Shown: positions 4,252 to 56,422 of the stretch, one piece after another | How the letters are laid out: each line of letters opens with the position of its first letter | How positions within the stretch are numbered: position 1 is the first letter of the stretch | Source of the DNA: an uncultured Acetatifactor sp. | Lineage (GTDB): Bacteria; Bacillota; Clostridia; Lachnospirales; Lachnospiraceae | Direction: 5' to 3' | DNA length: 64,000 nt | Assembly (NCBI GenBank): GCA_947624245.1 | Contig: CANQJL010000003.1 | Location: forward strand, 62,001 to 126,000 | Notes under the pieces: generated by a model | Told to the model about the DNA's origin: nothing | Database searches by the model: none | The model's input: only the letters and a program-made list of their open reading frames with translations | Translations under genes and position numbers: made by a program

Positions 4252-5022
4252 ATGAAGAAAATATATGAGTTCAAGGGACTTAGTAAAAATCAAAAAAAGG
4301 AATTGACAAAAAACTATTTTAAAAGTGAATGGAAGAATCTTTTAATTTCTTACATTTTTATTATTTTGTCTTCATCAAAACCATTTTTTTCAAGTAAAAA
4401 TGGTGCCCTTTTTGTATTAATTTGGTTTACTTTAGCTATTCTATTGTCTATATATGCTTATATAAACCAAAGCGATTATATGAATAGCAAGAAAAAAGCA
4501 GTGAAATACTCAAGAAAACATAAAAATGTAGAAGTAGAAAAAGGCTCTACCTTTTTCCCAGAAATTGGTGGGGGGACTTTTATAGGAATGCAGGTTCTGG
4601 CTGCTCTTGTGGTTTATATTTTTATCTTACCGGTATCTTTATACTTGCAATTTAAAAATCGCGAAATCTATAACAAAGTTTATATGAAACTTTTAATAGG
4701 TATTTTTGCGGATACATATATTGTGGCTTTCTTTAACGTAACTCTTTATATTTTTATAGAATTTATACATAATTGTGTAAATGATAGAACGACTTTAAAG
4801 AAGACTATATCCTCGTTAAAATTAAAATATGTAATAGGCTGCGTTGGAGCAATTATTATTTTTTGTATGGCAATTATTTATTATTTTACTAAAGAATTTG
4901 AAGGATTATTTGGAGATATGGCCAGAAAAATCGTGGGGAGTATCTATATTATTTTTATACTGTATCCACTGATTAAGTGTATAAAACAAATGATTAACAA
5001 AAAGAAATTGTTATCTCAATAA
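4252..5022 (+). CDS. Polytopic membrane protein of unknown function
   Basis: A 256-residue protein with a basic, soluble N-terminus (MKKIYEFKGLSKNQKKEL) followed by about six hydrophobic segments. These include SYIFIILSSS, LFVLIWFTLAILLSIYAY, GMQVLAALVVYIFILPVSLY, IFADTYIVAFFNVTLYIFIE, YVIGCVGAIIIFCMAIIYYF and IVGSIYIIFILYPL. A longer frame starts at 4228, but GGAGAGGAAATT directly before the ATG at 4252 supports the shorter form. It resembles many clostridial small integral membrane proteins, but I recognise no family motif. Its composition is strongly AT-rich, like the toxin-antitoxin pair before it, so it may have arrived with that unit. No terminator is obvious between 4056 and 4228. Confidence 0.6.
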   Translation: MKKIYEFKGLSKNQKKELTKNYFKSEWKNLLISYIFIILSSSKPFFSSKNGALFVLIWFTLAILLSIYAYINQSDYMNSKKKAVKYSRKHKNVEVEKGSTFFPEIGGGTFIGMQVLAALVVYIFILPVSLYLQFKNREIYNKVYMKLLIGIFADTYIVAFFNVTLYIFIEFIHNCVNDRTTLKKTISSLKLKYVIGCVGAIIIFCMAIIYYFTKEFEGLFGDMARKIVGSIYIIFILYPLIKCIKQMINKKKLLSQ

Positions 5023-5214
5023 GGTATTTCTCCTTGCATATCTGCGCTTGTCCGCTCCGGTATTAAGTTAGTTTCCGTCTTCATATTCGGCCTTCTTCAC
5101 AAAAAACAAGACGCATAGAAATTGATCTACGCGTCCTAATGCTATTCCTGTATCACATTTTGGACTCATTACACTATCTGCATGATTTGGGGTTCTAATT
5201 CCTTTAATTCATTT

Positions 5215-7932: not shown

Positions 7933-8073
7933 TTCAAATTTTCATGCCACCACCCATTCTGCCGCTTCGGCGACTTTTTTGGACATAAATATACTCCTCT
8001 TATGGCAGATTTGTTCAAGAAAAAATAAATAAAATGTGTAAACCCCAGTAGATGCTGCTACTGGGGTTTTTGC
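7893..8073 (+). ncRNA. Candidate small RNA of about 180 nucleotides
   Basis: The unit is bounded by the promoter at 7858-7886 and a strong intrinsic terminator ending near 8073. In between are only very short frames: MPPPILPLRRLFWT at 7944 without a ribosome site, and MADLFKKK near 8001. The 5' part contains the AAAGTATACTTT palindrome, and there is a C-rich stretch (CCACCACCC) that could pair with G-rich ribosome sites. Existence of the transcript is inferred from signals only. A short peptide message is the main alternative. Confidence 0.45.
8041..8072. terminator. Strong hairpin terminator, usable in both directions
   Basis: AACCCCAGTAG, loop ATGCTG, CTACTGGGGTT: an 11-base-pair perfect stem. 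On the plus strand TTT follows directly, giving a run of five T with the stem end. On the minus strand, GGGGTTTACACATTTTATTT follows. It would end the candidate RNA (plus) and the lipoprotein gene at 8105-10453 (minus). Confidence 0.85.
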
Positions 8074-8104
8074 ATGTTTCTAAATAACTTTGTCTACTTG
8101 TTCC

Positions 8105-10777: not shown

Positions 10778-10820
10778 AAGATTTCGGGCTTCCCGCTGCA
10801 GGAAGCCTGTGAATATGAAC

Positions 10821-11714
10821 CTACTCTTGGGGAAAATTGATCTGCCCCTGGAGCCATACCACGCCCTTGAAGCGTCGGCCCACCTGGGGTTCCCCAAACA
10901 AATCCATTATATTGATACAGACGTCAAATGTCAATTCATTACAGCAAATTGTGAGAATATAAATCTTCTCGCCGGTGATGTGATTGGTGACGGTTCTGAT
11001 CCCGACGATCTCACCCAGAATGGAATATTGATCGCATTCCACGCCGTAGGGCATAAAGTAGGTATCTACCAGGCTGAAGATGTCCTCCTTCTGAATCCTT
11101 CGGGAGATGGTGGTGTAAATATCCATATCCTCTAAGGTCAACGTCTCAATGGCCTCCTCGTCGCCTTTTCGGGCAGCAGCCATCAGGTTGTTCCGGTTGG
11201 CGGAAGCCTGCTTTACCCGCTGCAGCTGCTCTTCGTCCTTCTGAATGGGCAGCATGACGGAGCCGCTTACAGACAACGCGGACAGCGTCAGTGTGGTTCC
11301 GCGAACGGGCAGCTTCCCCGTGGTCTGGGCCTTCACATAAGGAATTCTGTTCTTCAGGTAAAAGATCAGCGAGATCCCTACCTTAATATCGTCACACACT
11401 CCCGCATAGGAGTCCTTGTCGGCGTGGCGCTCCACGGACACGTCCTCATAAGACGTGATCCCGCTGCCGTTCAGATAGGGATAGTAATATTCGTAAGTAA
11501 ACTTTTCGTCCTCGTCAAACTCTCCGCAGACCGCAATTCCCAGATCGTTGGCAAAATCTTTGCAAAATTCGCCCAGAAGCACGTTATCCTGACTGACGGT
11601 AATGGCACGCCTGTCCGAATTGATCACTACCTCCGTCAAAAGTTCCTGCAGTTTTCTCTTGCTCTCAAAGCTGCTGAAACCGACAGCACGCATATATTTG
11701 TGCAAAAATCTCAC
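10821..11714 (-). CDS. DUF3881 family protein
   Basis: A 297-residue soluble protein that begins MRFLHKYMRAVGFSSFESKR, characteristic of the DUF3881 family, which is largely confined to Lachnospiraceae and relatives. It contains FYLKNRIPYVKAQT, a helical region with AAARKGDEEAIETLTLEDMD, and a C-terminal beta-rich part ending in FKGVVWLQGQINF. No catalytic motif is recognised and no function is established. It follows serS by 48 bases on the same strand, and its conserved place near parAB and serS supports a core role. Confidence 0.85.
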   Translation of the reverse strand: MRFLHKYMRAVGFSSFESKRKLQELLTEVVINSDRRAITVSQDNVLLGEFCKDFANDLGIAVCGEFDEDEKFTYEYYYPYLNGSGITSYEDVSVERHADKDSYAGVCDDIKVGISLIFYLKNRIPYVKAQTTGKLPVRGTTLTLSALSVSGSVMLPIQKDEEQLQRVKQASANRNNLMAAARKGDEEAIETLTLEDMDIYTTISRRIQKEDIFSLVDTYFMPYGVECDQYSILGEIVGIRTVTNHITGEKIYILTICCNELTFDVCINIMDLFGEPQVGRRFKGVVWLQGQINFPQE

Positions 11715-11762
11715 CTTCCTTCCATATCCGGATCTCTCGGGACCGGTCCTTTTTTCAAAAAC

Positions 11763-13049
11763 TTAAGCATTTGGCAGAATCTTCTCCTTGCCGCCCATGT
11801 AGGGGCGAAGCACCTCGGGAATATTGATGCTTCCGTCGGCGTTCACATTATTTTCCAGAAAAGCGATCAGGCCTCTGGGTGACGCCAACACTGTATTATT
11901 TAATGTATGCACATAGTAAGTACCGTTTTCTCCTTTGGTGCGAATGCCGAGACGTCTCGCCTGTGCATCGCCCAGAGTGGAACAGGAGCCTACCTCAAAG
12001 TACTTCTTCTGTCTGGGGCTCCACGCCTCCACGTCGCAGGATTTTACCTTCAGGTCCGCCAGGTCGCCGCTGCAGCACTCCAGCGTGCGCACGGGAATAT
12101 CGAGGCTGCGGAAGAATTCCACCGTATAGCTCCACATCTTGTCATACCACGCCATGGAGTCCTCCGGCTTACACAGCACTACCATCTCCTGTTTTTCAAA
12201 CTGGTGTACCCGATATACTCCTCTCTCCTCCATGCCATGGGCGCCTACCTCTTTGCGGAAGCAGGGGGAATAGGAGGTCATGGTCACGGGCAGGCTCTTT
12301 TCATTTACAATCTGGCCCTGAAACTTACCGATCATGGAATGCTCGGAGGTGCCGATCAGGAACAGGTCCTCTCCTTCAATCTTATACATCATAGCTTCCA
12401 TCTCGGCAAAGCTCATCACACCGTTCACCACACTGCTGCGGATCATAAAGGGCGGAATACAGTAGGTAAAGCCCTTGTCGATCATGAAATCTCTGGCGTA
12501 ACTGATCATGGCGGAGTGGATCCTTGCCGCGTCGCCCATCAGATAGTAAAACCCGTTGCCGCTGGTCCGTCCGGCGCTATCCTTGTCCAAGCCGCTTATG
12601 CTGTCTAAAATATCCGCATGGTAGGGAACCTCAAAATCCGGAACCACGGGCTCGCCGTATTTTTGAATCTCCACATTCTCGCTGTCGTCCTTGCCGATAG
12701 GAACGGAAGGGTCGATAATATTCGGAATGACCATCATGATCTTTGTGATCTTTTCCTGAAGCTCTGTCTCCAGCGCCTCAAGCTCCGCAAGTCTCTTGGC
12801 TCCGGCAGCCACCTCGGCTTTTTTTGCCTCGGCTTCTTCCTTTTTGCCCTGCCCCATGAGCGCGCCGATTTCCTTGGAGATCCTGTTTCTGGCCGCCCGC
12901 AGGTCGTCGCCCTCCTGCTTTGCCTTCCTGCTCTCCGCATCTAATGCGATTACCTCGTCCACCAGCGGCAGCTTTTGGTCCTGATATTTCTTTCGGATAT
13001 TTTCCTTTACCGCCTCAGGGTTCTCCCTCAAAAATTTAATGTCGATCAT
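11763..13049 (-). CDS. serS: Serine--tRNA ligase
   Basis: Seryl-tRNA synthetase (class II), 428 residues, which charges tRNA-Ser in the cytoplasm. The N-terminal coiled-coil arm that binds tRNA covers residues ~25-105. Motif 2 is visible as FRKEVGAHGMEERGVYRVHQ, and motif 3 as the C-terminal NTVLASPRGLIAFLENN (family: NGSGLAvgR). TSEHSM of the active site is also present. The start at 13049 (MIDIKFLRENPE) matches the usual N-terminus; an in-frame ATG four codons upstream is possible. The motif 3 sequence ASPRGL instead of the common SGLAVGR is typical of a subset of clostridial SerRS enzymes. No T-box leader is seen in the 33-base gap upstream. Confidence 0.95.
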   Translation of the reverse strand: MIDIKFLRENPEAVKENIRKKYQDQKLPLVDEVIALDAESRKAKQEGDDLRAARNRISKEIGALMGQGKKEEAEAKKAEVAAGAKRLAELEALETELQEKITKIMMVIPNIIDPSVPIGKDDSENVEIQKYGEPVVPDFEVPYHADILDSISGLDKDSAGRTSGNGFYYLMGDAARIHSAMISYARDFMIDKGFTYCIPPFMIRSSVVNGVMSFAEMEAMMYKIEGEDLFLIGTSEHSMIGKFQGQIVNEKSLPVTMTSYSPCFRKEVGAHGMEERGVYRVHQFEKQEMVVLCKPEDSMAWYDKMWSYTVEFFRSLDIPVRTLECCSGDLADLKVKSCDVEAWSPRQKKYFEVGSCSTLGDAQARRLGIRTKGENGTYYVHTLNNTVLASPRGLIAFLENNVNADGSINIPEVLRPYMGGKEKILPNA

Positions 13050-13082: not shown

Positions 13083-14135
13083 TTAGTCCATCGCTTTCTC
13101 AATAAAGACGTTGTGCACCTTCACGAGGTCCTTTATGATTTTGCGGTCTACCTGATTGCCGTGTTTATCTTTCAAAATTTTGATAACGGGTCTGTCCTGA
13201 AATCCTTTGTTCTGGGAAAGCACCACAGCCAGCTCTCCTTCATTGGTGAGCACGTAAGTCCCTGCGGGATACACTGCCGTGAATTCCAAAAACACATCTA
13301 CTATTTTATCATCAAATAATATATTTTTAAAGCTTTTTAAATATTCTATCGCCTCGTAGACCTTCACTCTCCGGCAGCCGATACCGCAGATCATCTCGTC
13401 AAAGGTATCGCATACGCTCACGATCCGGCACTCCAGAGGGATTTCCCGCGGGTGCATGGGAAATCCGGAGTCGTCCAGCCGCTCATGATGGTAAAGGATA
13501 ATGGACTTGCTCAGCTTGGAGATCCATGTCTCGTCCTTCAGGGCGAGATACCCGTATATGGGGTGCTTTTTGTATTCGGTAAGGCTTTGCTTGTTCAGTG
13601 TACCCACATCTTGATTATTGTAGTCAACCGTCATATATCTCATGCCGATATCGTGGAGCAGACAGCCCACACCGATATCATGGATCCTTTTGATATCAAG
13701 GCCCATCTTGAGGGCAGTCAGAATCGACAGGGCACAAATGTTGATAGAGTGTTCATAGATGTCGGCGCTTCTCTCTTTTATGTCAAATACCTTTTCAACT
13801 ACTTGGTTTTCCTGCAGTATACTGTCGATGATATCGTCGGCCGCGTCGCTGAGCTCCGCAAGCTCCTGATTGTGCCGGTAAGTATGGTGCTCCAGGATAT
13901 CCCTCACTGTGTTCTTGACAGATTCTTCCGTCTCCGATCTTAAGATCGCGATCTCATCGGCTTCCGGATTGTCTGTCTTCACATAGACCTCCGTAATTCC
14001 CAGCTCGTCAAATTTTTCGATATAATCTTTTCGGATAACGGTTCCCTGCGGAAGTAAGATCTGGTAGTCCTTATTCCTGATATCCCGGGCCAAGACCTCA
14101 TCACCTACTAATTCTCGCGTGCTTTTCCGTTTCAT
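13083..14135 (-). CDS. HD-GYP domain protein (predicted cyclic-di-GMP phosphodiesterase)
   Basis: A 350-residue cytoplasmic protein. The N-terminal ~60 residues resemble the small domain that precedes many HD-GYP proteins (LARDIRNKDYQILLPQGTVI). The HD part shows HSINICALSI near residue 133 and LLHDIGM near 159. The HD-GYP signature appears as HHERLDDSGFP, with GFP in place of GYP and one altered residue before it. Active members hydrolyse cyclic-di-GMP to pGpG or GMP; the GFP variant could change activity. The C-terminal ~60 residues form a small beta domain. It lies between DUF4446 and serS on the minus strand. Confidence 0.85.
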   Translation of the reverse strand: MKRKSTRELVGDEVLARDIRNKDYQILLPQGTVIRKDYIEKFDELGITEVYVKTDNPEADEIAILRSETEESVKNTVRDILEHHTYRHNQELAELSDAADDIIDSILQENQVVEKVFDIKERSADIYEHSINICALSILTALKMGLDIKRIHDIGVGCLLHDIGMRYMTVDYNNQDVGTLNKQSLTEYKKHPIYGYLALKDETWISKLSKSIILYHHERLDDSGFPMHPREIPLECRIVSVCDTFDEMICGIGCRRVKVYEAIEYLKSFKNILFDDKIVDVFLEFTAVYPAGTYVLTNEGELAVVLSQNKGFQDRPVIKILKDKHGNQVDRKIIKDLVKVHNVFIEKAMD

Positions 14136-14156
14136 AAATAAATCACCGCTTCGACA

Positions 14157-14693
14157 TCATTCTCCCATGGCAATCGCCAGCGCTTCCGCCTCCTCATTGC
14201 CAAGCGCAATAGAACATTCCCCGTTCCGGATCTCCTTTGTGTAGGAATAACAGCCGTCCGTGCTGTGAACGGAGTTTATGATAAATCCGTCATTGTTCTC
14301 ATTCAACAGGGCCAGACTGAAGCTGAGCTGCCCGCCCATCTGGTTGAACGCATCATATTTCACAAGTCCCATCTTCTGATACGCCGACTCTAATTTCTTG
14401 TATATCGTGCGGATATCCTTTTTGTTCTTTTCCGTGCTGTCCTTCAGAAATTTGTTGTCCTCGAACAGACCTGCAATATCCTGCTCCAAGCTGGTGCCGT
14501 CCTTTCCCGTAAGGAACAGATCCAGCCGTCTCTTCAGACTTCCCGTTCTGCGGATCTGCACGATCAGCAGGACAAGCAGAACCAGTACAAGTACCGCAAG
14601 TATCGCAACCGCTATCAAAAGATATCCCAGATCAAAATCGGATACACCGAACAGATTCAAAATACGGTCCAGCATGGTATTTTTTGCACTCAT
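14157..14693 (-). CDS. DUF4446 membrane protein next to parB
   Basis: A 178-residue protein with one membrane segment near the N-terminus (LGYLLIAVAILAVLVLVLLV), a basic stretch, and a cytoplasmic part with GKDGTSLEQDIAGLF and YDAFNQMGGQLSFSLALLN, the typical DUF4446 core. The start at 14693 is supported by GGGAGAG upstream; a longer frame to 14729 is possible. It follows parB by 40 bases, a conserved neighbourhood in Clostridia. The function is unknown; a membrane-linked role near segregation proteins is only suggested by context. Confidence 0.8.
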   Translation of the reverse strand: MSAKNTMLDRILNLFGVSDFDLGYLLIAVAILAVLVLVLLVLLIVQIRRTGSLKRRLDLFLTGKDGTSLEQDIAGLFEDNKFLKDSTEKNKKDIRTIYKKLESAYQKMGLVKYDAFNQMGGQLSFSLALLNENNDGFIINSVHSTDGCYSYTKEIRNGECSIALGNEEAEALAIAMGE

Positions 14694-14733
14694 CTTTTCT
14701 CTCCCGTTCTCCAAAACAGTTTTTATCAAACGA

Positions 14734-15624
14734 TCAGTTGCCGCCTATCATATCCAGCAGTCTGTCCAGATCCTGGTGATTGTAGAACTCGATCTCAATC
14801 TTTCCCGCACCGTCGCCCTTCGGACTGACTGTGACCTTGGTGCCGAATTTCTGTTTCAACTTTTCTTCTATGTCCAGATAGATGGCCTGCATGGTCTTAT
14901 CATCTGTCTTCTTCGGCTTTGCCGGCTTGTGCAGATTTTTGACCAGCTTCTCCACGTCCCGAACACTGAGCTTCTCATCAAAGATCTGCTGGGCCAGGGT
15001 GTATTGTTCCTCGGGATCCTCAACGCCAAGAAGCGCTCTGGCATGACCGGTGCTGATCATGTCGTCAATGACCATCTGCTGTACTTCGTCGCAGAGCTTC
15101 AAAAGACGAATGGAATTCGTGACTGCGGCACGGCTCTTGGAAACCCGCTCCGCCACTTCATCTTGCTTTAGGTTGAACTCCGTCAGCAGACGCTTATAGG
15201 CCTGGGCTTCCTCGATGGGATTTAAGTCCTCTCTCTGTATATTCTCGATCAGCGAGATCTCCATGATCTCCTGTTCGGAATAATCTCTGACGATTACAGG
15301 AATTTCTTTCAGTCCGGCAAGCTTAGCCGCACGCCATCTTCTCTCACCGGCAATGATCTCGTAATGATCCTTGCGGTCCTGCACAAGAGGGGGCTCCAGC
15401 AGACCTACCTGTTTGATGGAATCTGCCAGTTCCTGCAGCTTGTCCTCATCAAAATTTTTACGGGGCTGCTTTCTGTTCGGTTCTACAGAGGTGATCTTTA
15501 CCAGAATCACTCCGCCGTCCTTCTCCGCCGGTGCTGCGCTCTTTGCTTCCTTCTTTGTCTTTGCCTCCCCCACCGCGTTGGGAATCAAAGAATCAAGGCC
15601 CTTTCCTAATCCTCTCGCTGCCAT
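14734..15624 (-). CDS. parB: Chromosome partitioning protein ParB (Spo0J)
   Basis: A 296-residue ParB/Spo0J. It begins AARGLGKGLDSLIP, the short N-terminal peptide that contacts ParA. The ParB/Srx CTP-binding domain shows RKNFDEDKLQELADSI, the motif GERRWRAAKLAG (the CTP-binding box) and ENIQREDLNPIEEA. The helix-turn-helix that reads parS follows as KQDEVAERVSKSRAAVTNSI. The C-terminal ~50 residues form the dimer domain. The start at 15624 has an AGGAGA/GGAG site; an earlier ATG at 15660 is disfavoured. ParB loads at parS and spreads as a clamp. Two parS sites lie just upstream of parA, within 1.2 kb. Confidence 0.95.
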   Translation of the reverse strand: MAARGLGKGLDSLIPNAVGEAKTKKEAKSAAPAEKDGGVILVKITSVEPNRKQPRKNFDEDKLQELADSIKQVGLLEPPLVQDRKDHYEIIAGERRWRAAKLAGLKEIPVIVRDYSEQEIMEISLIENIQREDLNPIEEAQAYKRLLTEFNLKQDEVAERVSKSRAAVTNSIRLLKLCDEVQQMVIDDMISTGHARALLGVEDPEEQYTLAQQIFDEKLSVRDVEKLVKNLHKPAKPKKTDDKTMQAIYLDIEEKLKQKFGTKVTVSPKGDGAGKIEIEFYNHQDLDRLLDMIGGN

Positions 15625-15678
15625 ATCTCCATTCTCCTCTTTTTCGCTGCCTTCCGGCAAACTTGCTTTTCATTCTAC

Positions 15679-16446
15679 CTATTTTCTGCTGTCCGCAATA
15701 ATCTCATCTGCCAACTGCATATACGCTTCGGCGCCTGCGGACTTTGCGTCATATTTGTTGATGGGCATTCCGTAACTGGGAGCCTCCGCAAGCCGAATAT
15801 TTCTTGGTATGAGGGTGTTATATACCTTTTGTTTCAGGTTCTGCTTCACGTTCTCCACCACTTGCATAGACAGATTCGTTCGGGAATCATACATGGTAAA
15901 GATAACGCCCTCCATATCGAGATCCGGATTCAGCCTCTCCTTTACCAAATTCACGGTGTGAATCAACTGGCTCAATCCCTCCAGCGCATAATACTCGCAC
16001 TGAATCGGCACCAGCACACTGTCCGCCGTAGTCATGGCATTGATGGTCAACATGTTCAGCGAAGGGGGACAGTCGATGATAATGAAATCATATTTGTCCT
16101 TCACATAGTCTACTTCGTTCTTTAATATGTATTCCTTCTTATCCACGCCGATCAGCTCGATCTCCGCCGCAGCCAAATTTACATTGGCAGGCAGGACAGA
16201 GACGTTCTCGATCACTTCCCCGATGATACATTCATGGATAGAACACTCGCCCAGAATCAGCTCATAGATGGTATTGTCCAGATCATTCTTGTCGATACCA
16301 AAACCGCTGGTGGTGTTTCCCTGAGGATCCGCATCAATCACGAGAACCTTCTTTCCTTTTTCCGCTAAGCTGGCCGACAGATTAATGGAGGTGGTCGTCT
16401 TACCTACTCCGCCCTTCTGATTCGCAACAGCAATAATTTTTCCCAT
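15679..16446 (-). CDS. parA: Chromosome partitioning ATPase ParA (Soj)
   Basis: A 255-residue ParA/Soj ATPase of about the usual 253-residue length. The deviant Walker A KGGVGKTTTSINL is at residues ~11-23, Walker A' as VLVIDADPQGN, and Walker B as DFIIIDCPPSLN. It binds DNA non-specifically as an ATP dimer and, with ParB, places the origin and regulates DnaA. It heads the transcript parA-parB-DUF4446-HD-GYP. The parS sites lie in its upstream region, so ParB binding could also affect its promoter. Confidence 0.95.
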   Translation of the reverse strand: MGKIIAVANQKGGVGKTTTSINLSASLAEKGKKVLVIDADPQGNTTSGFGIDKNDLDNTIYELILGECSIHECIIGEVIENVSVLPANVNLAAAEIELIGVDKKEYILKNEVDYVKDKYDFIIIDCPPSLNMLTINAMTTADSVLVPIQCEYYALEGLSQLIHTVNLVKERLNPDLDMEGVIFTMYDSRTNLSMQVVENVKQNLKQKVYNTLIPRNIRLAEAPSYGMPINKYDAKSAGAEAYMQLADEIIADSRK

Positions 16447-46406: not shown

Positions 46407-46468
46407 AGAGCGACGGCAAAAAGATGTCTCCACAGGGCGGGAGAAGTCTGCACAGAAGGAACGGAACC

Positions 46469-48040
46469 ATGAATTTTCAGAAGAACGACACGGTCACGGT
46501 GACGATAGAAGACATGGGAAGCGACGGCCAGGGCATCGGCAGAGCGGACGGCTTTACGCTGTTCGTGAAGGACGCCGTGGTCGGGGATACCGTGGAGGCC
46601 CGAATCGTCAAGAATAAGAAAACATACGCATATGCGCGGACAGAGAAGGTGGTCACACCTTCTCCTTTTCGTGTGGAACCGAAATGCCCCTGTCACAGAC
46701 AGTGCGGTGGCTGCCAGCTCCAGGCGCTGTCTTATGAAAAGCAGCTGGAATTCAAGCAGGACAAGATCCGGAATAACCTGATCCGCATCGGCGGGTTCTC
46801 TCCGAAGGACATAGACCGGTGCATGGAACCGATCGTGGGTACAGAGCAGCCCTTCCGCTACCGCAATAAGGCCCAATATCCGGTGGGAACGGATCGGGAC
46901 GGGAACGTGATTGCCGGTTTTTATGCGGGCAGGACGCACTCCATCGTGGCGAACACGGACTGTCTTCTGGGGGTGGAGGAGAACAGAGAGATTCTGGAGA
47001 TCATTCTGGAGCATATGCGCAAGAACCATATCAGCGCCTACGACGAGGCCACCGGCGAGGGACTGGTGCGGCATGTTTTGATCCGCAAGGGCTTTACCAG
47101 CGGCGAGATCATGGTGTGTCTGGTGCTGAACAAGAAAATGACAGATGTGTCACCTCAAGAGGCCGGAAGGCGGAAGGAAGGGGACAAAAATAGTCCGTGC
47201 ACCTATAGTTCAAGCGCTCTTGAATGGATCGCCGGTCAGGAAGAATTGCTGCGCAGGCTGAGCCAGGTCAAAGGAATGACAAGCGTGTCGGTTAATTGCA
47301 ACACCGAGCGGACCAATGTTATCTTGGGGAGGGAAGTCGTCACCATATGGGGAAGCCCCGCTATCACAGACACTATTCATGTGCGGGATATGAACCGGCC
47401 GGATTTTCCCATTACCGGCAGAGAGCTTTCCTTTTCCATCTCGCCTCTCTCCTTTTATCAGGTGAATCCCATCCAGACGGAGAAGCTCTACAGTCTGGCG
47501 CTTGCCTATGCGGGACTTACCGGACGGGAGACGGTATGGGACCTCTACTGCGGGATCGGAACGATTTCCCTTTTTCTGGCGGGAAGCGCAAAGAAGGTCT
47601 GCGGCGTGGAGATCGTGCCCCAGGCCATAGAGGACGCCCGTGAAAATGCCCAGCGAAACGGTATCGCCAACGCGGAGTTCTTTGTGGGAAAGGCGGAGGA
47701 AGTGCTGCCTGCGTTCTATGCAGATGCTGCAGGCAGGGAGGATACAGATGCAATCGGTTCCGGTCTTCTGAGTCCGGCAAGCGATTCCGCCGATATGCTG
47801 CACCCTGATGTAATCGTAGTGGATCCGCCCCGCAAGGGCTGCGACGAGGCCTGCCTCGCCGCCATGCTGCAGATGCGGCCGCAGCGGATCGTGTATGTGA
47901 GCTGTGATTCCGCCACCCTTGCCAGAGATCTGAAGGTGCTGTGCGAGGGCGGACAGTACCGGATCGAGAGGCTGCGCGGCGTGGACATGTTTTCGCAGGG
48001 GGTGCATGTGGAAACGGCTGTGCTGCTTGTCCGAACTTAA
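46469..48040 (+). CDS. rlmD: 23S rRNA (uracil-C5) methyltransferase, RlmD/TrmA family
   Basis: A 523-residue methyltransferase. An N-terminal TRAM domain (DTVTVTIEDMGSDGQGIGRA) is followed by the iron-sulfur cysteines CPCHRQCGGC near 71-80. The catalytic domain shows FYQVNPIQTEKLY, DLYCGIGTISLFLA (SAM site), DPPRKGCDEACL and VSCDSATLARDLKVL, where the cysteine is the nucleophile. It is longer than the usual ~450 residues because of two low-complexity linkers, at ~229-250 (SPQEAGRRKEGDKNSPC) and ~415-445. The start at 46469 has an AAGGAACGG site. The paralogue it most resembles (RlmD or RlmCD) is not certain. Confidence 0.88.
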   Translation: MNFQKNDTVTVTIEDMGSDGQGIGRADGFTLFVKDAVVGDTVEARIVKNKKTYAYARTEKVVTPSPFRVEPKCPCHRQCGGCQLQALSYEKQLEFKQDKIRNNLIRIGGFSPKDIDRCMEPIVGTEQPFRYRNKAQYPVGTDRDGNVIAGFYAGRTHSIVANTDCLLGVEENREILEIILEHMRKNHISAYDEATGEGLVRHVLIRKGFTSGEIMVCLVLNKKMTDVSPQEAGRRKEGDKNSPCTYSSSALEWIAGQEELLRRLSQVKGMTSVSVNCNTERTNVILGREVVTIWGSPAITDTIHVRDMNRPDFPITGRELSFSISPLSFYQVNPIQTEKLYSLALAYAGLTGRETVWDLYCGIGTISLFLAGSAKKVCGVEIVPQAIEDARENAQRNGIANAEFFVGKAEEVLPAFYADAAGREDTDAIGSGLLSPASDSADMLHPDVIVVDPPRKGCDEACLAAMLQMRPQRIVYVSCDSATLARDLKVLCEGGQYRIERLRGVDMFSQGVHVETAVLLVRT

Positions 48041-49904: not shown

Positions 49905-51326
49905 ATGAAAGAATCTTTAAAATCGGCAAATCCATATCTGCCGCTTTGGGAGCATGTTCCTGACGGGGAACCGCGCGTTTTTGAATACAATGGCGAGAGG
50001 CGTCTTTATGTCTACGGTTCTCATGACACAGAGCGCAGCTCTTATTGTGGGCGGGACTATGTCGTCTGGAGCGCTCCCGTTGATGATCTCACTGACTGGA
50101 CGTATCACGGCGTATGCTACACTGCCACTGACGGCTCGGTTCTCTATGCGCCGGACGTAGTGCAAAAAGGAGACACATTCTATCTCTATGCCGCTGAGGA
50201 GCGCGGCGCAAGGATTATGGCAGCGTCTTCAAAAAATCCTGCGGGACCTTTTGTAAATCCCATCGAAACAAAGCTTGGCTTTGACCCGGGAATTTTAGTC
50301 GACGACGACGGAAGGGTATATGCGTACTGGGGCTTTTGCTCGTCGTTCTGCGCCGAGCTTGATGACGATATGGCGACCATAAAGGAAGGGACATTCCGCA
50401 GCCATCCGATAGGTCATGTTCCCGACCCATGGAACAAAAACGCCGATACCGCGCACATAGACCTCCGGGACGCTTTCTTTGAAGCATCGAGCCCTCGGAA
50501 AATAGGCGGAAAATATGTTTATGTATATTCCAAAAGATATGTCACGCCTCTGCCTGAATTAGGGGTATATGAGCCCAATAACGGTTTTTTGTCATACAAG
50601 TGGTCTGACAGTCCGCTTGAAGGCTATCAGGAAGGCGGAGACATATCTTTTAACGGCGGAGAGATCTTAAAGCTGCCTGACGGAACGGGGCAGCAGACAT
50701 ACCGCTGGGGCAACAATCACGGCGGGCTTGTGGAGATAAACGGTCAGTGGTATATTTTCTACCACCGCCAGACCGGAACCGACGAATTTTCACGTCAGGG
50801 TATGATAGAGCCTGTAGATATAGCGGTCGGAAAGGACGGAAAAATCTATATCGGCGATATTGCTTATGTAAACGGCGAGCCGGTATCTTCAAAGCCTGTG
50901 GAGATGACCTCATCGGGCGCAAACGTAAACGGCATAGATGCTTATAAATCCGTTTCCGCAGGCTACGCCTGCCATATAAGCCCGCTTCATCAGGCATATA
51001 TACAGCCTGTCTATGAATGTAAAGACGGTATTTCCGCGCCTGTTGTAAATATTCAAAACGGAACTGTTGTCGGCTTTCGATATCTGCAGTTCGGTACAGT
51101 GCCGCCTAAGACCGTTTCTGTATCCGCAAAGGTCAAGGGGAGAATGAATATCAAGGTTCGCGTTGACAATTATCACGGGAAAGCCGTCGCTGAACTTGAA
51201 ATGAAAGAAGGCGATACCGTACAAAGCGCACCGCTTACCTCGGGTATTATTGGCAGGAGGGCAATATATTTCGAGTTTTCCGGCGAGGGTGAAGCTGAGT
51301 TTGACAGTTTCACGTTTGACAGATAA
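49905..51326 (+). CDS. Glycoside hydrolase family 43 protein
   Basis: A 473-residue enzyme with no signal peptide, so cytoplasmic. It begins NPYLPLWEHVPDGEPRVFEY, a common GH43 start. The five-bladed propeller residues seem present: DGEP (base region), YAPDVVQKGDTFYLY (pKa modulator) and FEASSPRKIGGKYVYVYS (acid glutamate). The C-terminal ~130 residues form a beta-rich domain (VKGRMNIKVRVDNYHGKAVA) like a carbohydrate-binding module. It probably cleaves arabinose or xylose from imported oligosaccharides. A GGAGGGA site supports the start at 49905. No transporter or sugar operon adjoins. Confidence 0.85.
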   Translation: MKESLKSANPYLPLWEHVPDGEPRVFEYNGERRLYVYGSHDTERSSYCGRDYVVWSAPVDDLTDWTYHGVCYTATDGSVLYAPDVVQKGDTFYLYAAEERGARIMAASSKNPAGPFVNPIETKLGFDPGILVDDDGRVYAYWGFCSSFCAELDDDMATIKEGTFRSHPIGHVPDPWNKNADTAHIDLRDAFFEASSPRKIGGKYVYVYSKRYVTPLPELGVYEPNNGFLSYKWSDSPLEGYQEGGDISFNGGEILKLPDGTGQQTYRWGNNHGGLVEINGQWYIFYHRQTGTDEFSRQGMIEPVDIAVGKDGKIYIGDIAYVNGEPVSSKPVEMTSSGANVNGIDAYKSVSAGYACHISPLHQAYIQPVYECKDGISAPVVNIQNGTVVGFRYLQFGTVPPKTVSVSAKVKGRMNIKVRVDNYHGKAVAELEMKEGDTVQSAPLTSGIIGRRAIYFEFSGEGEAEFDSFTFDR

Positions 51327-51372
51327 AATTTCACGGATTGAATATTTTAGTCTCTTTTAAGGGAGGGTCAGA

Positions 51373-52989
51373 ATGCCTTTAGACAATGGTATGACAAAGG
51401 AAGAGGTAAAAGCACTCATTGTAAAAGCAAAATCCGGTGATAACGCGGCATGGGAAAGACTATATCATCATTTTGAAAAATACATCCATTCCCGTGCATG
51501 GAATTGTTTGAAAAAACCGGATATGACACCTGACCGCAAAAAGGATTTGGAAGAGGAGCTGTATCAGGCGGGCTGGCAGGGATTTTTGTCTGCCGTGCGG
51601 AATTATGATCCGAAGCAGGGGGAATTTCTGACCTATGCCACGCATTTTATTGACGGGGAAATGGCAAAGGAAATGAAACTTGTCACAAATCCGCATGGAT
51701 TTACGGAAATACCGGATTTTCGGGAGCGCATGGAAACGCAAACAGCGAAAAGGGTATTTGCAGACGGGAAAACAATTTCCGTGGAGGAGTCGCCCAATCG
51801 GGGAAAATACAGCGCGGAGAGGCGCACCCTGCAGATTTTGGAAATCCTTCGTCTTCTCACGGATGAAACGCACAGCCTGTCAAAAGACGAACTGGACAGA
51901 TGCCTGCGCCTCTACCGCATGGCAAAATATAAAAACGGCACGCCGTTGGAAGCGCCAAACACACTCACAAGCACGCTGGAGGAAATACTGGCGGAAATGG
52001 ACCCGCCGGAGTATACGGACGACAATGAGGGAGACTATCGGGTCCGGTATGCGGGGTATCGGGAGAACCGCCTGAAAGAAAGGCAGAACAAAGAAAAAGG
52101 AAAGAAATCAGCGGATATTACGGATTTTTCTTATGTACATATATTCAGCTATGCGGAGCTGGACAGTCTGATCCAGATGGTCAGCTTTTCCGATCTGCTT
52201 TCCAATGAGGAAAAAAAGCGGCTGGTGGACAAGCTGGTGTCCACATCCAGTCTCTATTACCGGACGCCGTTTTACGACGGAGACAGGCTGAAATTCAGTC
52301 CTCAGACCATACACGGAAGATTCAGCACAAGAGCGATGGGGGACAGGAAACCGTTTGCGGCAAAGATCAATCTGATCCAGCAGGCCATAAAGAACCTGTG
52401 TCAGATACGGTTCCGGTTCAACTGTTATACATCGGAACACACGACGGTGCCGAAAACGGAATATCAGCATGTGTTAAGTCCCTATCATCTGGTGGTCTAT
52501 CACGACAATTACTATTGCATCGGAATGAAGAAGGAGGACAGGCGCATCTGGCATTACCGGGTGGATTTGATGTCGGAGGTGGAGCTCGTTACGGATGGGG
52601 AGGGGAAACCTGTGCCCATTGATGTCTGCGTCTTTGAAGGTCTGCCGATTTCCAACGCATATTGGGATCCGGAAAAATATATGGCGGAGCATCTGTATAT
52701 GGCGTATGACGAGCCCCGGGAAATACAGATTAAGCTTCGCTCCGATGACTATACGATTCTGCATGACTGGTTTGGGAATCATTATGAAAAGATGAATGAG
52801 TCCATAGAAACCGATGAAAATGGCAGCAGGGTGCAGTATGACACCGTAAAGGTCAGAACTTCGCCTTCTATGATTGTCCACTGGGCCATGCAGTATGCCG
52901 GGGCGGTGGAGATCCTGGACGAGGAAATTCGGGAGAGAATCAGGGACGAAATCGCAAAGCTCAAGAAAAAATATGAAGAAAGAATCTGA
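51373..52989 (+). CDS. Fusion of a sigma-70 region 2-like domain with a WYL-domain regulator
   Basis: A 538-residue protein. Residues ~8-110 resemble sigma-70 region 2: KSGDNAAWERLYHHFEKYIH, then LYQAGWQGFLSAVRNYDPKQ and GEFLTYATHFIDGEMAKEM, where the family has a DLxQEGxxGLxxAxxxFD and FxTYAxxWIR pattern. Residues ~140-250 resemble the N-terminal part of WYL regulators (RRTLQILEILRLLTDETHSL). Residues ~270-520 carry the WYL sensor region, including LSPYHLVVYHDNYYCIGMKK and WHYRVDLMSEVEL. Regions 3 and 4 of sigma are not evident. GGAGG precedes the ATG. It would be a DNA- or polymerase-binding regulator responding to a ligand or nucleic acid. Confidence 0.8.
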   Translation: MPLDNGMTKEEVKALIVKAKSGDNAAWERLYHHFEKYIHSRAWNCLKKPDMTPDRKKDLEEELYQAGWQGFLSAVRNYDPKQGEFLTYATHFIDGEMAKEMKLVTNPHGFTEIPDFRERMETQTAKRVFADGKTISVEESPNRGKYSAERRTLQILEILRLLTDETHSLSKDELDRCLRLYRMAKYKNGTPLEAPNTLTSTLEEILAEMDPPEYTDDNEGDYRVRYAGYRENRLKERQNKEKGKKSADITDFSYVHIFSYAELDSLIQMVSFSDLLSNEEKKRLVDKLVSTSSLYYRTPFYDGDRLKFSPQTIHGRFSTRAMGDRKPFAAKINLIQQAIKNLCQIRFRFNCYTSEHTTVPKTEYQHVLSPYHLVVYHDNYYCIGMKKEDRRIWHYRVDLMSEVELVTDGEGKPVPIDVCVFEGLPISNAYWDPEKYMAEHLYMAYDEPREIQIKLRSDDYTILHDWFGNHYEKMNESIETDENGSRVQYDTVKVRTSPSMIVHWAMQYAGAVEILDEEIRERIRDEIAKLKKKYEERI

Positions 52990-53127
52990 TTTTCAAAATT
53001 TTGAACATGGTTTTCTCCATAATATAGATGACACTTATAATCGTTGATTTACAAATTTTATATGTGAGCTGCTGAAAACGCTGATCTGTGCGTTTTGAGC
53101 ACAGCGGCGGGCAGAAAGGAGAAAAAC

Positions 53128-53841
53128 ATGGAGCTTTTGCGTGGCAGCTTATTTTCAATTGCGCCGTTCATAAGAGTGGAAGGGCACCAACTTGATATAC
53201 TGGAGTCCGGATATTCGGGCGGGTATGGTTATTATGTGGACATGGGATACCGCAGGCGTTTTTGGACGTCCGGTACGATGTACTTAGTTCACTGGGAGGC
53301 AGACGAAACGGTAAGATGGGAACCGATAGAGGTGGACGGTAATCTGGAGGAAGCTAAAAACGGAAAAAAGGTTTTCAAGCTGGTTTCATGGTTAAAGGCT
53401 AAGGGCTATCATCCGTGTACCTGCGTCAGAAGCTGTTCTCTGGAGGAGTACCGTAACAGCTGCGGTTACGTGGGGAATATCATCCTTATGAAGAACGGCG
53501 GCATTACGAAAGAATCCGGGTGGTTTGATTACGACGCTTACCGATGGAGCGTGGACTTTTATGGACAAGGGCTTTTGTCTGTGGGCGGACGAGTCGTGCG
53601 GGAATTTTATACCAGCTATTGGATCACCAAGAAGCTGACAGGGAAACAGGAGGATGCTTTCATGAAGCTTTTTGAAGGGTCCGCCACCTTTACAAATGCG
53701 GAATTTGTCAGATGGCTTGAGGACTTGGATATGGGCGATTCCCTTGATTGGATCCATATACGGTTTTCTGATGATCCATCATCTGATTTTTCGGTCAAAA
53801 AGCTGGCGGAGACGGACAGCGTGAGGAGTATTGAGGGATGA
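53128..53841 (+). CDS. Hypothetical protein after the sigma/WYL gene
   Basis: A 237-residue soluble protein starting MELLRGSLFSIAPFIRVEGH with an AAAGGAG site. It is rich in tyrosine, glycine and tryptophan in the first 60 residues (SGYSGGYGYYVDMGYRRRFW) and has three cysteines near 95 (CTCVRSC). Later segments include DYDAYRWSVDFYGQGLLSVG and a helical C-terminus (FVRWLEDLDMGDSLDWIHI). No membrane segment and no motif is recognised. It is 138 bases after the sigma/WYL gene and has a possible TATAAT of its own near 53034. Function unknown. Confidence 0.6.
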   Translation: MELLRGSLFSIAPFIRVEGHQLDILESGYSGGYGYYVDMGYRRRFWTSGTMYLVHWEADETVRWEPIEVDGNLEEAKNGKKVFKLVSWLKAKGYHPCTCVRSCSLEEYRNSCGYVGNIILMKNGGITKESGWFDYDAYRWSVDFYGQGLLSVGGRVVREFYTSYWITKKLTGKQEDAFMKLFEGSATFTNAEFVRWLEDLDMGDSLDWIHIRFSDDPSSDFSVKKLAETDSVRSIEG

Positions 53842-53941
53842 AACTAAAGACATCAAAGGAAACTTTGCACAGTAAAAGTCGGTAGTGCGGAAGAGCGAAG
53901 GTGAAAACAGACAGCTTTCAATGAAGGGAGGAGAAAAAGAG

Positions 53942-54757
53942 ATGATGATTGGTAATGAAGAAAAAATTAAAAAAATTACTGGCTATGGGGTGGGAGAATT
54001 GTATGAAACAAACACTTCTCAAAAAATAGAATGCTCCAAAGGGGATAATGCTAAGATTTTGGACATAAGAGAACCAAGATATAAGGATTTGGACATAGAT
54101 GATGAAAAACAAAAATATGATGGAGCAACGTTTAATTTTCATCTATATCCAGAAGACAAAAAAGTAACGGAAGATATTGCAACAAAGGTATGCAATGTAA
54201 GAAAAGAAGTAATCAAACAGCTTAAAGAACAAGGTGCATGTGTGGATAAAGAGAAATTTAAAAAATCTTATATAGATAATAATATATACGTAAGTGCAGA
54301 TATAAATGAAAAAAATGAAGTGAAATGTGGACTCGGAGCAGGAGGCGGAACAGGAGAATTTGGCGGTTTATATCGCTATATAGCGGCAAAGAAAAATGGA
54401 ATTTTGTATGAACTAAATTTTATGCGCTTTTTTATAGATAAAGACAAAAAGGTAAATTGTATTTTAAAGGCGATACAGTTTGACCGATGCATGGAAGAGT
54501 TAAGCGGCGTGAATTGTGACAAAGGGGAATGTAGAATCTGCTATCCAACATCGTATCGATCACAGGCGGCTTATCTCAACAAAATAATAGAAGAAAATAG
54601 CAGAGAAGGCTTAAAAAGTTTTTGCTATAATCCTGATGTGAGTTTTTATTATGATTCGGAAAATGAAGAAAAAACCGCTAAGAATGCGGCGTTGATTGCC
54701 AAATTATTTATTGATTTTATAAATAAATGTGACGAATGGAAAAAGGCTGATGAATGA
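53942..54757 (+). CDS. AT-rich hypothetical protein
   Basis: A 271-residue lysine- and asparagine-rich soluble protein. Three in-frame starts exist (53885, 53921, 53942); 53942 is preferred because GGGAGGAG precedes it. It has a glycine-rich patch (GLGAGGGTGEFGGLYRYIAA) followed by strands LYELNFMRFFIDKDKKVNCI, and three cysteines around 200-206 (CDKGECRIC). No family is recognised. The base composition is far more AT-rich than the genes on both sides, a sign of separate origin. It ends 40 bases before the first phosphatase gene. Confidence 0.6.
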   Translation: MMIGNEEKIKKITGYGVGELYETNTSQKIECSKGDNAKILDIREPRYKDLDIDDEKQKYDGATFNFHLYPEDKKVTEDIATKVCNVRKEVIKQLKEQGACVDKEKFKKSYIDNNIYVSADINEKNEVKCGLGAGGGTGEFGGLYRYIAAKKNGILYELNFMRFFIDKDKKVNCILKAIQFDRCMEELSGVNCDKGECRICYPTSYRSQAAYLNKIIEENSREGLKSFCYNPDVSFYYDSENEEKTAKNAALIAKLFIDFINKCDEWKKADE

Positions 54758-54797
54758 GGGGACAAGAATCGAAGAAGTCAACTCATCCAGGAGGAGT

Positions 54798-55517
54798 ATG
54801 AGATATATTGTTTCCGACATACATGGCTGCTACGACCAGTATCGGGCGCTGCTGGAGAAGATTCATTTTTCAGATGCGGATGAGCTTTATGTGCTGGGCG
54901 ATGTCGTGGATCGCGGGCCGGAGCCCATCAAAGTGCTTCAGGATATGAAGAAGCGTCCGAACGTCATTTTTATTCTGGGAAATCACGACTTTGCCATGTA
55001 TTCTGTCATGAGAAAATTTGCGGTGGAGATTACGGAAGAAAATTATGACAGCCACCTGACCGGGGAGGATATGCTGGATCTGAACCTTTGGCTGCAGGAC
55101 GGCGGACAGAGCACGATGGAGAAGTTCCGGGGCCTGAACCGTGCGGAGATGGCGGATATTCTTGATTACATAGCGGAGGCGTCTCTGTATGAGGTAATAG
55201 AACACAACGGGAAAGAGTACCGGCTCGTCCATGCGGGGTTAGCGAACTTTGCGCCCGATAAAGAGCTGGACGAGTATGAATTACATGAGCTTCTGGAAGA
55301 AAGAGCGGACTATTCCAGAAGATACTATCCTCAGGACAATATCTATCTGGTGACGGGACATACGCCGACAATTTATATCGAAGGCTGGAACAAGCCGGAG
55401 GTGTACAGGAAACACGGGCACATTGCTCTTGACTGCGCCTGTGTGGCGGGAGGAAGGCTGGCGGCGTTCTGTGTGGAGACAGAGGAAGTCATCTATGTAG
55501 ACGGTTATCAATTGTAA
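54798..55517 (+). CDS. PPP-type metallophosphatase (serine/threonine phosphatase or ApaH-like), copy 1
   Basis: A 239-residue phosphatase with the full PPP signature: DIHGCYDQYRALLEKI (GDxHG-like) near residue 7, LGDVVDRGPEPIKVL near 37, LGNHDFAMY near 63, HAGL near 138 and GHTPT near 185. These residues bind two metal ions. Relatives hydrolyse phosphoproteins or diadenosine tetraphosphate; the choice cannot be made here. The start at 54798 has AGGAGGAG upstream. A related second copy follows 200 bases later. Confidence 0.88.
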   Translation: MRYIVSDIHGCYDQYRALLEKIHFSDADELYVLGDVVDRGPEPIKVLQDMKKRPNVIFILGNHDFAMYSVMRKFAVEITEENYDSHLTGEDMLDLNLWLQDGGQSTMEKFRGLNRAEMADILDYIAEASLYEVIEHNGKEYRLVHAGLANFAPDKELDEYELHELLEERADYSRRYYPQDNIYLVTGHTPTIYIEGWNKPEVYRKHGHIALDCACVAGGRLAAFCVETEEVIYVDGYQL

Positions 55518-55717
55518 ATTACCTTAAAGGTGGGGACATTGACCCTGAAATGATGTTGAGCCGGTATGAAATCTTTAATGATTGACGTAGTGCTGTGGCT
55601 GATGGAAAAGTGGACGGAAACAGAATATAGAGACTGACCGTATGAATCCTGAATACAGAAATGTATTAAACTCGGAGGCTCTTACGGCGGAGTTTTTTGA
55701 TAAAAAGGAGATTTTGT

Positions 55718-56422
55718 ATGAAATTATATTGTATGTCAGATATTCATGGCTGCCTTGGGGAGTTTGAGGAGGCGCTTTCTCTGGTGGCGGAACATCTGGA
55801 GGAAGACGATGTCAGGCTGATCCTCTTAGGCGATTATATCCATGGCGGCGCGGACAACAGGGGCGTGCTGGATAAGGTCATGGCGCTCCAGCATCGCTAC
55901 GGTACGGATAAGGTCGTGGCGCTCATGGGAAACCATGAAAAATTTGTCCTGCAGGGTGACTCCGACATCGATCACCTGATTAAGACGATCTGGCAGAATG
56001 ACAACGGCGGGGACGACGACGGAGAGGACGACAAGTACATTCGCTGGATGGAAAATTTGCCCCTTTATTACACGGAGGGCAATACCATTTTCGTCCACGC
56101 GGGCATTGATGAGGAGGCCGGCGACCTGTGGGAGTGGGTAACGGGAGATGAGATATTTACCGGTAAATATCCTGCGGAGACAGGGCAAATCGAAGGTCTC
56201 GAAATGAAAGTGGTAGCGGGGCATGTAGGCACTGCCGAGATCTCGGGAGATCTCAGCTATCATGACATTTATTATGACGGGGCAAGCCACTATTACATAG
56301 ATGGTACGGTTCTTAAAAGCGGCAGGATTCCCGTGCTGAAGGTGGATACGGAGACGGATCAATATTACAGAGTGACGGAAGGCGGAGATTGGCCGATCCT
56401 GCCCTATGAGGAGGAGAACTAG
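55718..56422 (+). CDS. PPP-type metallophosphatase, copy 2
   Basis: A 234-residue protein related to the gene before it: MSDIHGCLGEFEEALSLV, then LLGDYIHGGADNRGVLDKVM, LMGNHEKFVLQ, FVHAGIDEEAG and VVAGHVGTAEI. The second motif is GDYIHGG instead of GDxVDRG: the arginine of the DRG motif is lost and histidine takes the aspartate place, which might alter metal use or substrate. AAGGAG precedes the ATG. Tandem arrangement suggests an old duplication. Confidence 0.82.
   Translation: MKLYCMSDIHGCLGEFEEALSLVAEHLEEDDVRLILLGDYIHGGADNRGVLDKVMALQHRYGTDKVVALMGNHEKFVLQGDSDIDHLIKTIWQNDNGGDDDGEDDKYIRWMENLPLYYTEGNTIFVHAGIDEEAGDLWEWVTGDEIFTGKYPAETGQIEGLEMKVVAGHVGTAEISGDLSYHDIYYDGASHYYIDGTVLKSGRIPVLKVDTETDQYYRVTEGGDWPILPYEEEN

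Follow-up and report, generated by a model that had tools for sequence, protein, structure and literature searches.

A sigma-70 region 2–WYL regulator fusion and its predicted composite promoter

We analyzed a 64,000-nucleotide stretch of DNA from a gut bacterium (hereafter, the window) that encodes a protein of 538 residues in which region 2 of the sigma-70 family is joined to a WYL-domain regulator. We propose, with a probability of roughly 0.7, that this protein is a self-contained sigma factor in which a ligand-sensing WYL regulator takes the place of the domain that reads the −35 element. Since a matching two-part promoter lies directly behind its gene, the fusion probably starts transcription of the neighboring genes by itself. 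It also appears reasonably likely that such proteins form a new class of initiation factors, arisen at least twice, in which region 2 melts the −10 element and a fused ligand-gated factor takes the place of region 4; this wider reading includes that the protein reads its own operator and that it originated from an adjacent pair of sigma and WYL genes, with region 4 discarded each time. The features of the locus are listed in Table 1.

Table 1. Features of the regulator gene, the predicted composite promoter and the cargo genes in the window
Feature	Position	Strand	Basis and remarks
Vegetative (sigma-A type) promoter-like site, TTGACA-17-TAAAAT	51301..51329	+	Found by pattern match only; agrees with the consensus at 11 of 12 bases
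Sigma-WYL regulator gene, 538 aa	51373..52989	+	Open frame and conserved relatives
Sigma-70 region 2, residues 5-105	51385..51687	+	Pfam, SigF profile match, four-helix model, dN/dS
Linker, residues 106-145	51688..51807	+	Variable in length and sequence among relatives; mostly disordered; no region 4
Winged helix-turn-helix (wHTH), about residues 151-235	51823..52077	+	hhalign against ordinary WYL regulators
Helical module, about residues 252-300	52126..52272	+	Within the hhalign match; predicted helices 260-271 and 278-290
WYL domain, residues 332-405	52366..52587	+	Pfam E 1.1e-8; PADLOC WYL model E 3.1e-19
WCX domain, residues 449-530	52717..52962	+	Pfam E 0.059, below cut-off
Palindromic operator, predicted	52989..53008 (core TTCAAAATTTTGAA, 52992-53005)	+	46-bp model score 50.6, close group left out
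Predicted −10 element CATAAT	53018..53023	+	Fixed spacing; follows an 11-bp spacer and one C
Predicted transcription start T(−1)G(+1)	53029..53030	+	Inferred from the conserved TG 7 nt behind the −10 element
First cargo gene, no assigned function	53128..53841	+	No Pfam or NCBIfam match; the listed ORF starts with TTG at 53095
Second cargo gene, no assigned function	53885..54757	+	No Pfam match
Cargo calcineurin-like phosphoesterase near ApaH/PrpE/Pnkp	54729..55517	+	Metallophos E 2.9e-16; NCBIfam matches below cut-offs
Second cargo calcineurin-like phosphoesterase	55697..56422	+	Metallophos E 7.9e-15

The regulator gene is open from its ATG through its stop codon, with no internal stop. Pfam matched Sigma70_r2 at residues 61–98 (E 8.8e-6; 25.9 bits, cut-off 24) and HTH_16 at residues 14–56 (E 1.5e-4; 22.3 bits, cut-off 22). 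A family profile of 42 sequences, comprising the window protein and 41 relatives (L071, which is cut at its end, was excluded), matched SigF (1l0o) in the PDB over residues 5–104 with an E-value of 6.7e-9, followed by FliA, SigA, SigK, SigH and others. A preliminary description of this DNA had assigned the first ~110 residues to sigma region 2 and had named the lack of a significant match as one ground for refuting it; both Pfam and the profile search returned one. For residues 1–105 the fold assignment rests on sequence profiles together with helix predictions. In an AlphaFold2 model of the whole chain (mean pLDDT 76.9, pTM 0.52), residues 9–105 form four helices, with ten-residue pLDDT means of 79–89 across residues 11–100; residues 107–139 fall below a pLDDT of 50 and are followed by a helix-then-beta regulator part. 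Residues 55–105 are under purifying selection, with dN/dS values of 0.08–0.23 in eight pairs with the window protein, and the N-terminal 54 residues are looser (0.18–0.74 in pairs with the same protein). Where the protein aligns with the region 2.3 aromatic pair, and likewise with region 2.4, its residues differ from those of the vegetative factor sigma-70, which counts against the proposal.

The rest of the chain, ~400 residues described at first as a WYL regulator, does contain the expected WYL domain, and comprises in addition a linker, a wHTH with a helical module, and WCX. Residues 151–299 are homologous to the wHTH and helical module of 26 ordinary WYL regulators (hhalign probability 97.3%, E 2.5e-11), and by likeness to DriD the helical module may be a three-helix bundle. 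Among the 42 family proteins, at E ≤ 0.01, Sigma70_r2 was matched in 39, WYL in all 42 and WCX in 8, and sigma region 4 in none of the 42 fused proteins; neither region 4 nor region 3 appeared among the Pfam and NCBIfam matches of the window chain. By sequence, the chain thus consists of region 2, linker, wHTH, helical module, WYL and WCX, and lacks region 4. The order of its regulator part, with an HTH before WYL and WCX behind it, is that of the PafBC-like class A of WYL regulators, the WCX match being weak in the window protein. Homology to the sigma-70 family covers region 2 and does not extend to region 4 (or 3), so we class the protein as a region-2-only sigma relative and not as an ordinary member of that family. 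ECF sigma factors with regulatory extensions have both sigma2 and sigma4, and the missing region 4 places the protein outside this group as well.

Relatives were collected by scanning contigs from the genomes of 84,980 species with two conserved WYL/WCX peptides, which gave 57 loci whose classes were assigned by reading the ORFs. Fused sigma-WYL genes were found in 42 loci, three of them (L047, L062 and L071) cut at contig ends, and one further fused gene (L073) is frame-disrupted. Six loci (L083, L084, L085, L087, L088 and L092) carry a split form, in which the sigma gene and the WYL gene behind it are separate. One locus (L081) has a WYL gene of the sigma-partnered group with no adjoining sigma gene, in three (L091, L094 and L095) the regulator is cut at the contig start, and L097–L099 are other WYL genes. 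Carriers among these loci include Eubacterium ruminantium FB3002 and Lachnospiraceae bacterium XBB2008. A frameshift or assembly artefact was ruled out as the source of the fusion because 42 of the 57 related loci, from many assemblies, carry the same one.

The sigma ORFs of the split loci measure 185–219 aa as called, or 185–214 aa with an internal start used for three of them, and end 2–21 bp before the WYL ORF or overlap it by a few bases. Region 2 was matched in the separate sigma genes of L084 (E 2.2e-9), L088 (E 2.6e-9) and, below the cut-off, L083 (E 0.0013). Region 4 was matched in L083 at half a bit below the cut-off (E 3.7e-5). Pfam gave no region 4 for L084 and L088, where it was read by eye and by alignment; the same reading, without a Pfam scan, identified it in L085, L087 and L092.

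A search of 397 genomes of the same taxonomic family gave ten matches to the regulator at E ≤ 1e-20, of which six are the regulator or a remnant (G000, G195, G373, G390 with the remnant, G395 and G417) and four are WYL genes with no visible sigma part. Among 60 relatives, 36 of the same genus, the full fusion was present in G001 alone, and among 331 genomes of the class three matched at E ≤ 1e-40, our genome being one of them. Carriage on plasmids or phages was considered and rejected: five of 72,556 plasmid records and two of 50,697 phage records matched, none over 80% of the query, and in viral contigs 71 stretches had a pattern and none was confirmed. Three loci deserve mention in their own right. 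L096 holds a C-terminal regulator remnant (4760–5089); behind it two good promoter sites and their cargo persist, which a regulator copy elsewhere may serve. L050 has a second WYL gene without a sigma part (10813–12054) 1.25 kb downstream of its fused regulator (7974–9560). In L003 (1495–2520 and 1–1350), an ordinary WYL regulator directly adjoins an ORF whose Cas9-like start was recognized by eye.

The history of the fusion was reconstructed from midpoint-rooted trees of the WYL part and of region 2. In the WYL-part tree, a group of 50 rows (42 fused, six split, L081 and the cut L091) is separated with support of 95/96 from eight WYL proteins that have no sigma partner. The fused label requires three changes on this tree, and the starred branches force at least two, as they likewise do in the region-2 tree. 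One fused regulator, L090, is sister to five split forms plus L091 in the WYL-part tree (100/100), a group outside which L083 (91/71) and L081 (97/99) branch. Region 2 gives a tree in which L090 is nested within the same five split forms (100/100), with L088 as the first branch (95/80); L083 falls apart from them, on a long branch whose placement is weak. Both trees thus agree on the company of L090, though not on the exact order. Placing the six split sigma genes in a single clade was not rejected by the AU test (p 0.124).

Because L090 groups with split forms at 100/100 in both trees, and because the starred branches force at least two label changes, fusion accompanied by loss of region 4 probably took place on two or more occasions, provided that region 4, once lost, is never regained. 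With the same proviso, fusion plus loss is the simpler direction, since the fused forms lack region 4 and the split forms apparently have it; the two look like before-and-after stages. Repeated joining of adjoining sigma and WYL genes suggests that their products work together.

To find the sites that such a regulator might recognize, we compared 127 stretches upstream of same-strand ORFs from 44 loci, the ORFs being at least 100 aa long, preceded by a gap of 60–900 bp and located within 8 kb downstream of the regulator. The best spaced pairs of 5-mers occurred in 21–23 of the 127 cargo upstream regions, as against 5 in one shuffle. The element that emerged before the cargo genes is composite: in the window, the palindrome TTCAAAATTTTGAA is followed after exactly 11 bp by CCATAATA, and the consensus of 41 sites from 32 loci, with the spacer fixed at 11, reads ATCTTCAAAATTTTGAA(C/G)AT, then CTCCATAATATAaGTGaAAC. 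Its second part resembles a −10 element, and with CATAAT taken as −12 to −7 by the usual promoter distances, the core palindrome would lie at −38 to −25, centered at −31.5, where region 4 would act in an ordinary sigma factor. The hexamer is nearly invariant (A at −11 in 41 of 41 sites, T at −7 in 40 of 41), and the T and G at the predicted start are conserved in 39 and 37 of the 41 sites. In the window this is the sole site scoring at least 12 bits; the 2.53-Mb genome has one match at up to three mismatches, which is exact and lies 2 bp past the regulator stop codon.

The two halves of the operator covary on both sides (ATCTTC/GAAGAT, ATCCTC/GAGGAT, AACTTC/GAAGTT, ATGTAT/ATACAT). Dyad symmetry in the main group averages 7.7 of 10 pairs, as against 2.6 at random, in sites picked with a near-palindromic model; the operator of the group of split forms and L090 is less symmetric (5.9 of 10 pairs). 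Across groups, the half-sites vary while the −10 block, which the model itself favors, persists, as expected if the wHTH reads the former and region 2 the latter.

The distribution of the element was assessed with a 46-bp model rebuilt for each locus, excluding the locus itself and, for six hand-named close groups, the whole group. This model found 81 sites of at least 18 bits in 56 loci (783,535 bp) and none in one shuffled copy. All but one of the sites are on the regulator's strand (80 of 81; 74 downstream and 6 upstream), the exception being a downstream site on the other strand. A downstream site is present in 42 of the 56 loci, and 14 of these 42 have their first site beginning no more than 25 bp from the regulator stop codon. 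The 14 loci with no downstream site at this threshold include five with at most 610 bp of downstream sequence (L047, L062, L071, L072 and L084), L097, which is outside the sigma-partnered group, three with 1.1–1.9 kb (L059, L081 and L087) and five with at least 4.8 kb (L068, L069, L073, L074 and L083); L081 and L083 have weaker candidates with the same spacing, at 15 and 16 of 22 bases. Among 78 sites with a following ORF, measured to mechanically called ORF starts, the predicted start lies 20–70 nt before the ORF in 38, from −15 to 150 nt in 64 and more than 150 nt in 14. One locus outside the model, L141, has two sites downstream of its regulator (29.6 and 40.4 bits), its near relatives L079 and L080 being in the model; L142 repeats L086 and adds nothing. 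Since the sites share descent, these counts are not independent.

A search with the 20-bp palindrome by itself, which can be read on both strands, gave 109 hits of at least 18 bits (63 on the plus and 46 on the minus strand) and none in one shuffle. Of the 63 hits on the regulator's strand, 59 have ATAAT (at least 4 of 5 bases) at the fixed spacing, as against 2 of the 46 on the opposite strand; at 12 other offsets it accompanies 0–17 of all 109 hits.

In the 397 genomes of the family, a degenerate pattern of the element was found in 15: all six that hold the regulator or its remnant, and 9 of the 391 others (Fisher p 9.6e-10). The figure of six out of six is partly circular because the pattern was drawn in part from sites of those same genomes (loci L056, L063, L077, L090 and L096 and the window), and the weight of the comparison lies in the rarity of the pattern elsewhere. 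For five of the six genomes, the pattern occurs on the regulator's contig and strand, downstream of it (by 11 kb in G417), and in G373 it is on a different contig. Reversing the pattern left 2 hits in the 397 genomes. With the spacer one base longer, four of the 397 genomes matched, our own not among them, and the backwards version gave 4 hits; the match in G195 was on a contig apart from the regulator. Two of the nine regulator-free genomes illustrate the matches elsewhere: the site of G312 precedes a methyltransferase gene where its contig begins, and that of G101 has no recognized cargo in its region. Taken by its sequence and position, the element is the probable target of the regulator.

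In the mechanism that we propose, region 2 would dock on the clamp of RNA polymerase and would read and melt a −10 element of the C−12 type (CATAAT), while the wHTH, as a dimer, would read the palindrome centered at −31.5. The palindrome-bound wHTH would thereby perform the promoter anchoring that is the task of region 4 in ordinary sigma factors. WYL and WCX would make activity dependent on a ligand, by analogy a nucleic acid or nucleotide, so that one chain would be sensor, activator and sigma factor and would switch the cargo on; the one recognizable target in its own genome would be the promoter of the cargo genes directly downstream. Transcription of the regulator gene probably starts at a sigma-A promoter, a candidate being the upstream site in Table 1, although shuffled sequence gives pattern matches of this type about as often (3.3 expected, 4 found). 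Autoregulation was rejected, with 0 sites (at least 17 of 22 bases, spacer 11) in 34 regions upstream of the regulator gene. The preliminary description had suggested that one such chain could switch RNA polymerase directly in response to a signal. Direct action is favored by the retained region 2, by the repeated joining of sigma and WYL genes and by the promoter-like composite element with fixed spacing beside the regulator gene; a response to a signal is plausible from what is known of the WYL regulators PafBC and DriD.

The first alternative, which we regard as unlikely, is that the protein is a WYL activator of the PafBC/DriD type, or a repressor, working on the ordinary sigma-A holoenzyme; sigma-A would read CATAAT, and region 2 would be a relic or a tether that raises the local concentration of polymerase. 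CATAAT is one base from the vegetative −10 element, the palindrome alone would suit an ordinary regulator, and PafBC and DriD, in the available text of the papers on them (PMC11804915, PMC12340889), use a holoenzyme of the sigma-A type at promoters where −35 contacts are poor. However, base −12 is C in 58 of 61 palindrome-found sites, whereas in 59 sigma-A-like promoters of the same loci it is T in 40, G in 10, A in 6 and C in 3. Composite sites of at least 15 bits were absent from 43 control loci, namely 39 WYL genes outside the sigma-partnered group and four distant cargo relatives (187,662 bp in all, the loci being shorter, with a median of 3.4 kb). A relic would also fit poorly with a region 2 that is under purifying selection, is recognizable in 39 of 42 family proteins and was probably joined to the regulator at least twice.

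It is very improbable, in our judgment, that the protein is a sigma competitor, in which region 2 would occupy the clamp and the WYL part would park a dead-end complex on the operator until released by ligand. The operator would indeed cover a promoter, and with region 4 absent initiation is not guaranteed; against this, the conserved block runs through the −10 element to T−1 and G+1, as in a used promoter, and no plus-strand site of the vegetative type overlaps the element in the window. That the 46-bp element marks a recombination or cassette boundary and not a promoter is hardly credible: the genes behind it are indeed of many unrelated kinds (30 ORF clusters) and stand in arrays whose content varies, the element almost always points the same way, and in 14 of 78 cases over 150 nt separate it from the following called ORF, but it contains a −10 hexamer with the near-invariant A−11 and T−7, its half-sites covary like those of a protein-dimer site, and no recombinase stood out among the recurring neighbors listed.

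As a rule, a sigma factor and an activator are different proteins. If the self-contained sigma factor proposed here is real, a one-component regulator that took over the role of region 4 shows how promoter recognition of two kinds can be combined, and it allows a direct test of whether region 2 is enough for initiation when the upstream DNA contacts come from elsewhere, gp55 of phage T4 being a known case. With one recognizable promoter in its own genome, it could serve as a compact, orthogonal and signal-dependent expression switch. In the SigO–RsoA system of Bacillus subtilis, both parts are sigma regions and no WYL sensor is known.

That system likewise has a sigma factor divided over two proteins, according to the available part of its description (PMC10141391). 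PafBC of mycobacteria and DriD of Caulobacter, in the accessible text, share with the window protein the series of wHTH, helical linker, WYL and WCX; the DNA-binding domains of DriD flank the −35 position, and both regulators are switched by single-stranded DNA (PMC11804915, PMC12340889). They use a complete vegetative holoenzyme, whereas the window protein has region 2 on the same chain and lacks region 4. T4 gp55 is sigma-like in domain 2 only and gp33 binds the polymerase flap at the place of domain 4 (PMC2988020, as far as accessible). This T4 arrangement takes two chains and a sliding clamp, and gp33 reads no DNA sequence, whereas in the window protein the substitute for region 4 is fused and has, by prediction, a palindromic site of its own. 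Sensor and sigma factor are likewise united in one chain in ECF41 (SnoaL), ECF42 (TPR) and ECF238 (CorE), but in the available text of the ECF review these extensions contact or tune sigma2/sigma4 and do not replace sigma4, and WYL occurs 0 times in it (PMC8999054). Searches of titles and abstract openings, which covered few subscription papers, found no published fusion of sigma region 2 with WYL, and to that extent the earlier impression of a previously undescribed architecture holds; PMC6789036, in its accessible part, omits architectures with fewer than 100 sequences.

The genes behind the predicted promoters are diverse. In the window, the first cargo gene has a Shine-Dalgarno-like AAAGGAG before its ATG at 53128. 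Across the 78 sites with a following ORF, the genes fall into 30 ORF clusters, one of which is the regulator's own. Recurring neighbors were counted within 8 kb on either side, and among those listed the commonest is a family with no Pfam match in two members scanned (30 loci). Two clusters of calcineurin-like phosphoesterases follow, at 16 loci each, along with ABC transporter ATPases named by eye (16 loci, mostly upstream), an uncharacterized family (12), SpoVK/CbbX-like AAA proteins (9), NT5C-like HAD proteins (8) and rarer others. The profile of the commonest family matched 9 of the 397 genomes at E ≤ 1e-10, and found no member in our own genome. Five of these matches are strong (E 1.1e-115 or better), all in carriers of the regulator or its remnant (hypergeometric p 7.5e-11, the strong class having been drawn after the result was seen), and four are weak (E 6e-24 to 3e-15) in the non-carriers G137, G393, G430 and G445.

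A link to defence, raised in the preliminary description, found no convincing PADLOC match among the 13 proteins scanned, none of which matched the core genes of a known defence system. The regulator hit a generic WYL model and the next two ORFs gave no match. For ten cargo proteins, the best hit was a weak one, an IetA-type AAA model (E 3.7e-7) to the AAA protein of L063; the matches of PDC-S10 to the window phosphoesterases (E 0.0013 and 0.0015) and of Cas10 to the L043 kinase (E 0.0061) are marginal, and six of the ten had no match. The L063 protein (13141–15999), which has a double AAA architecture, is a relative of stage V sporulation protein K/CbbX that exceeds the SpoVK cut-off (E 2.1e-141); among the neighbors listed, 9 loci have a member of its cluster. 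L043 carries a P-loop kinase-like cargo protein (AAA_33; 14017–14925) near phosphoesterases of the Pnkp/ApaH type. It can be speculated that the kinase-like cargo, the phosphoesterases and the HAD proteins resemble an end-processing kit for nucleic acids or nucleotides.

Finally, the G+C content of the window drops from 56–57% at 46–48 kb to mostly 37–51% between positions 48000 and 59000. The drop begins behind a methyltransferase gene of the RlmD/TrmA type (46424–48040, named by eye), and the same methyltransferase cluster directly precedes the regulator in L050, L060 and L075. The region behind this gene is a possible insertion spot for islands.
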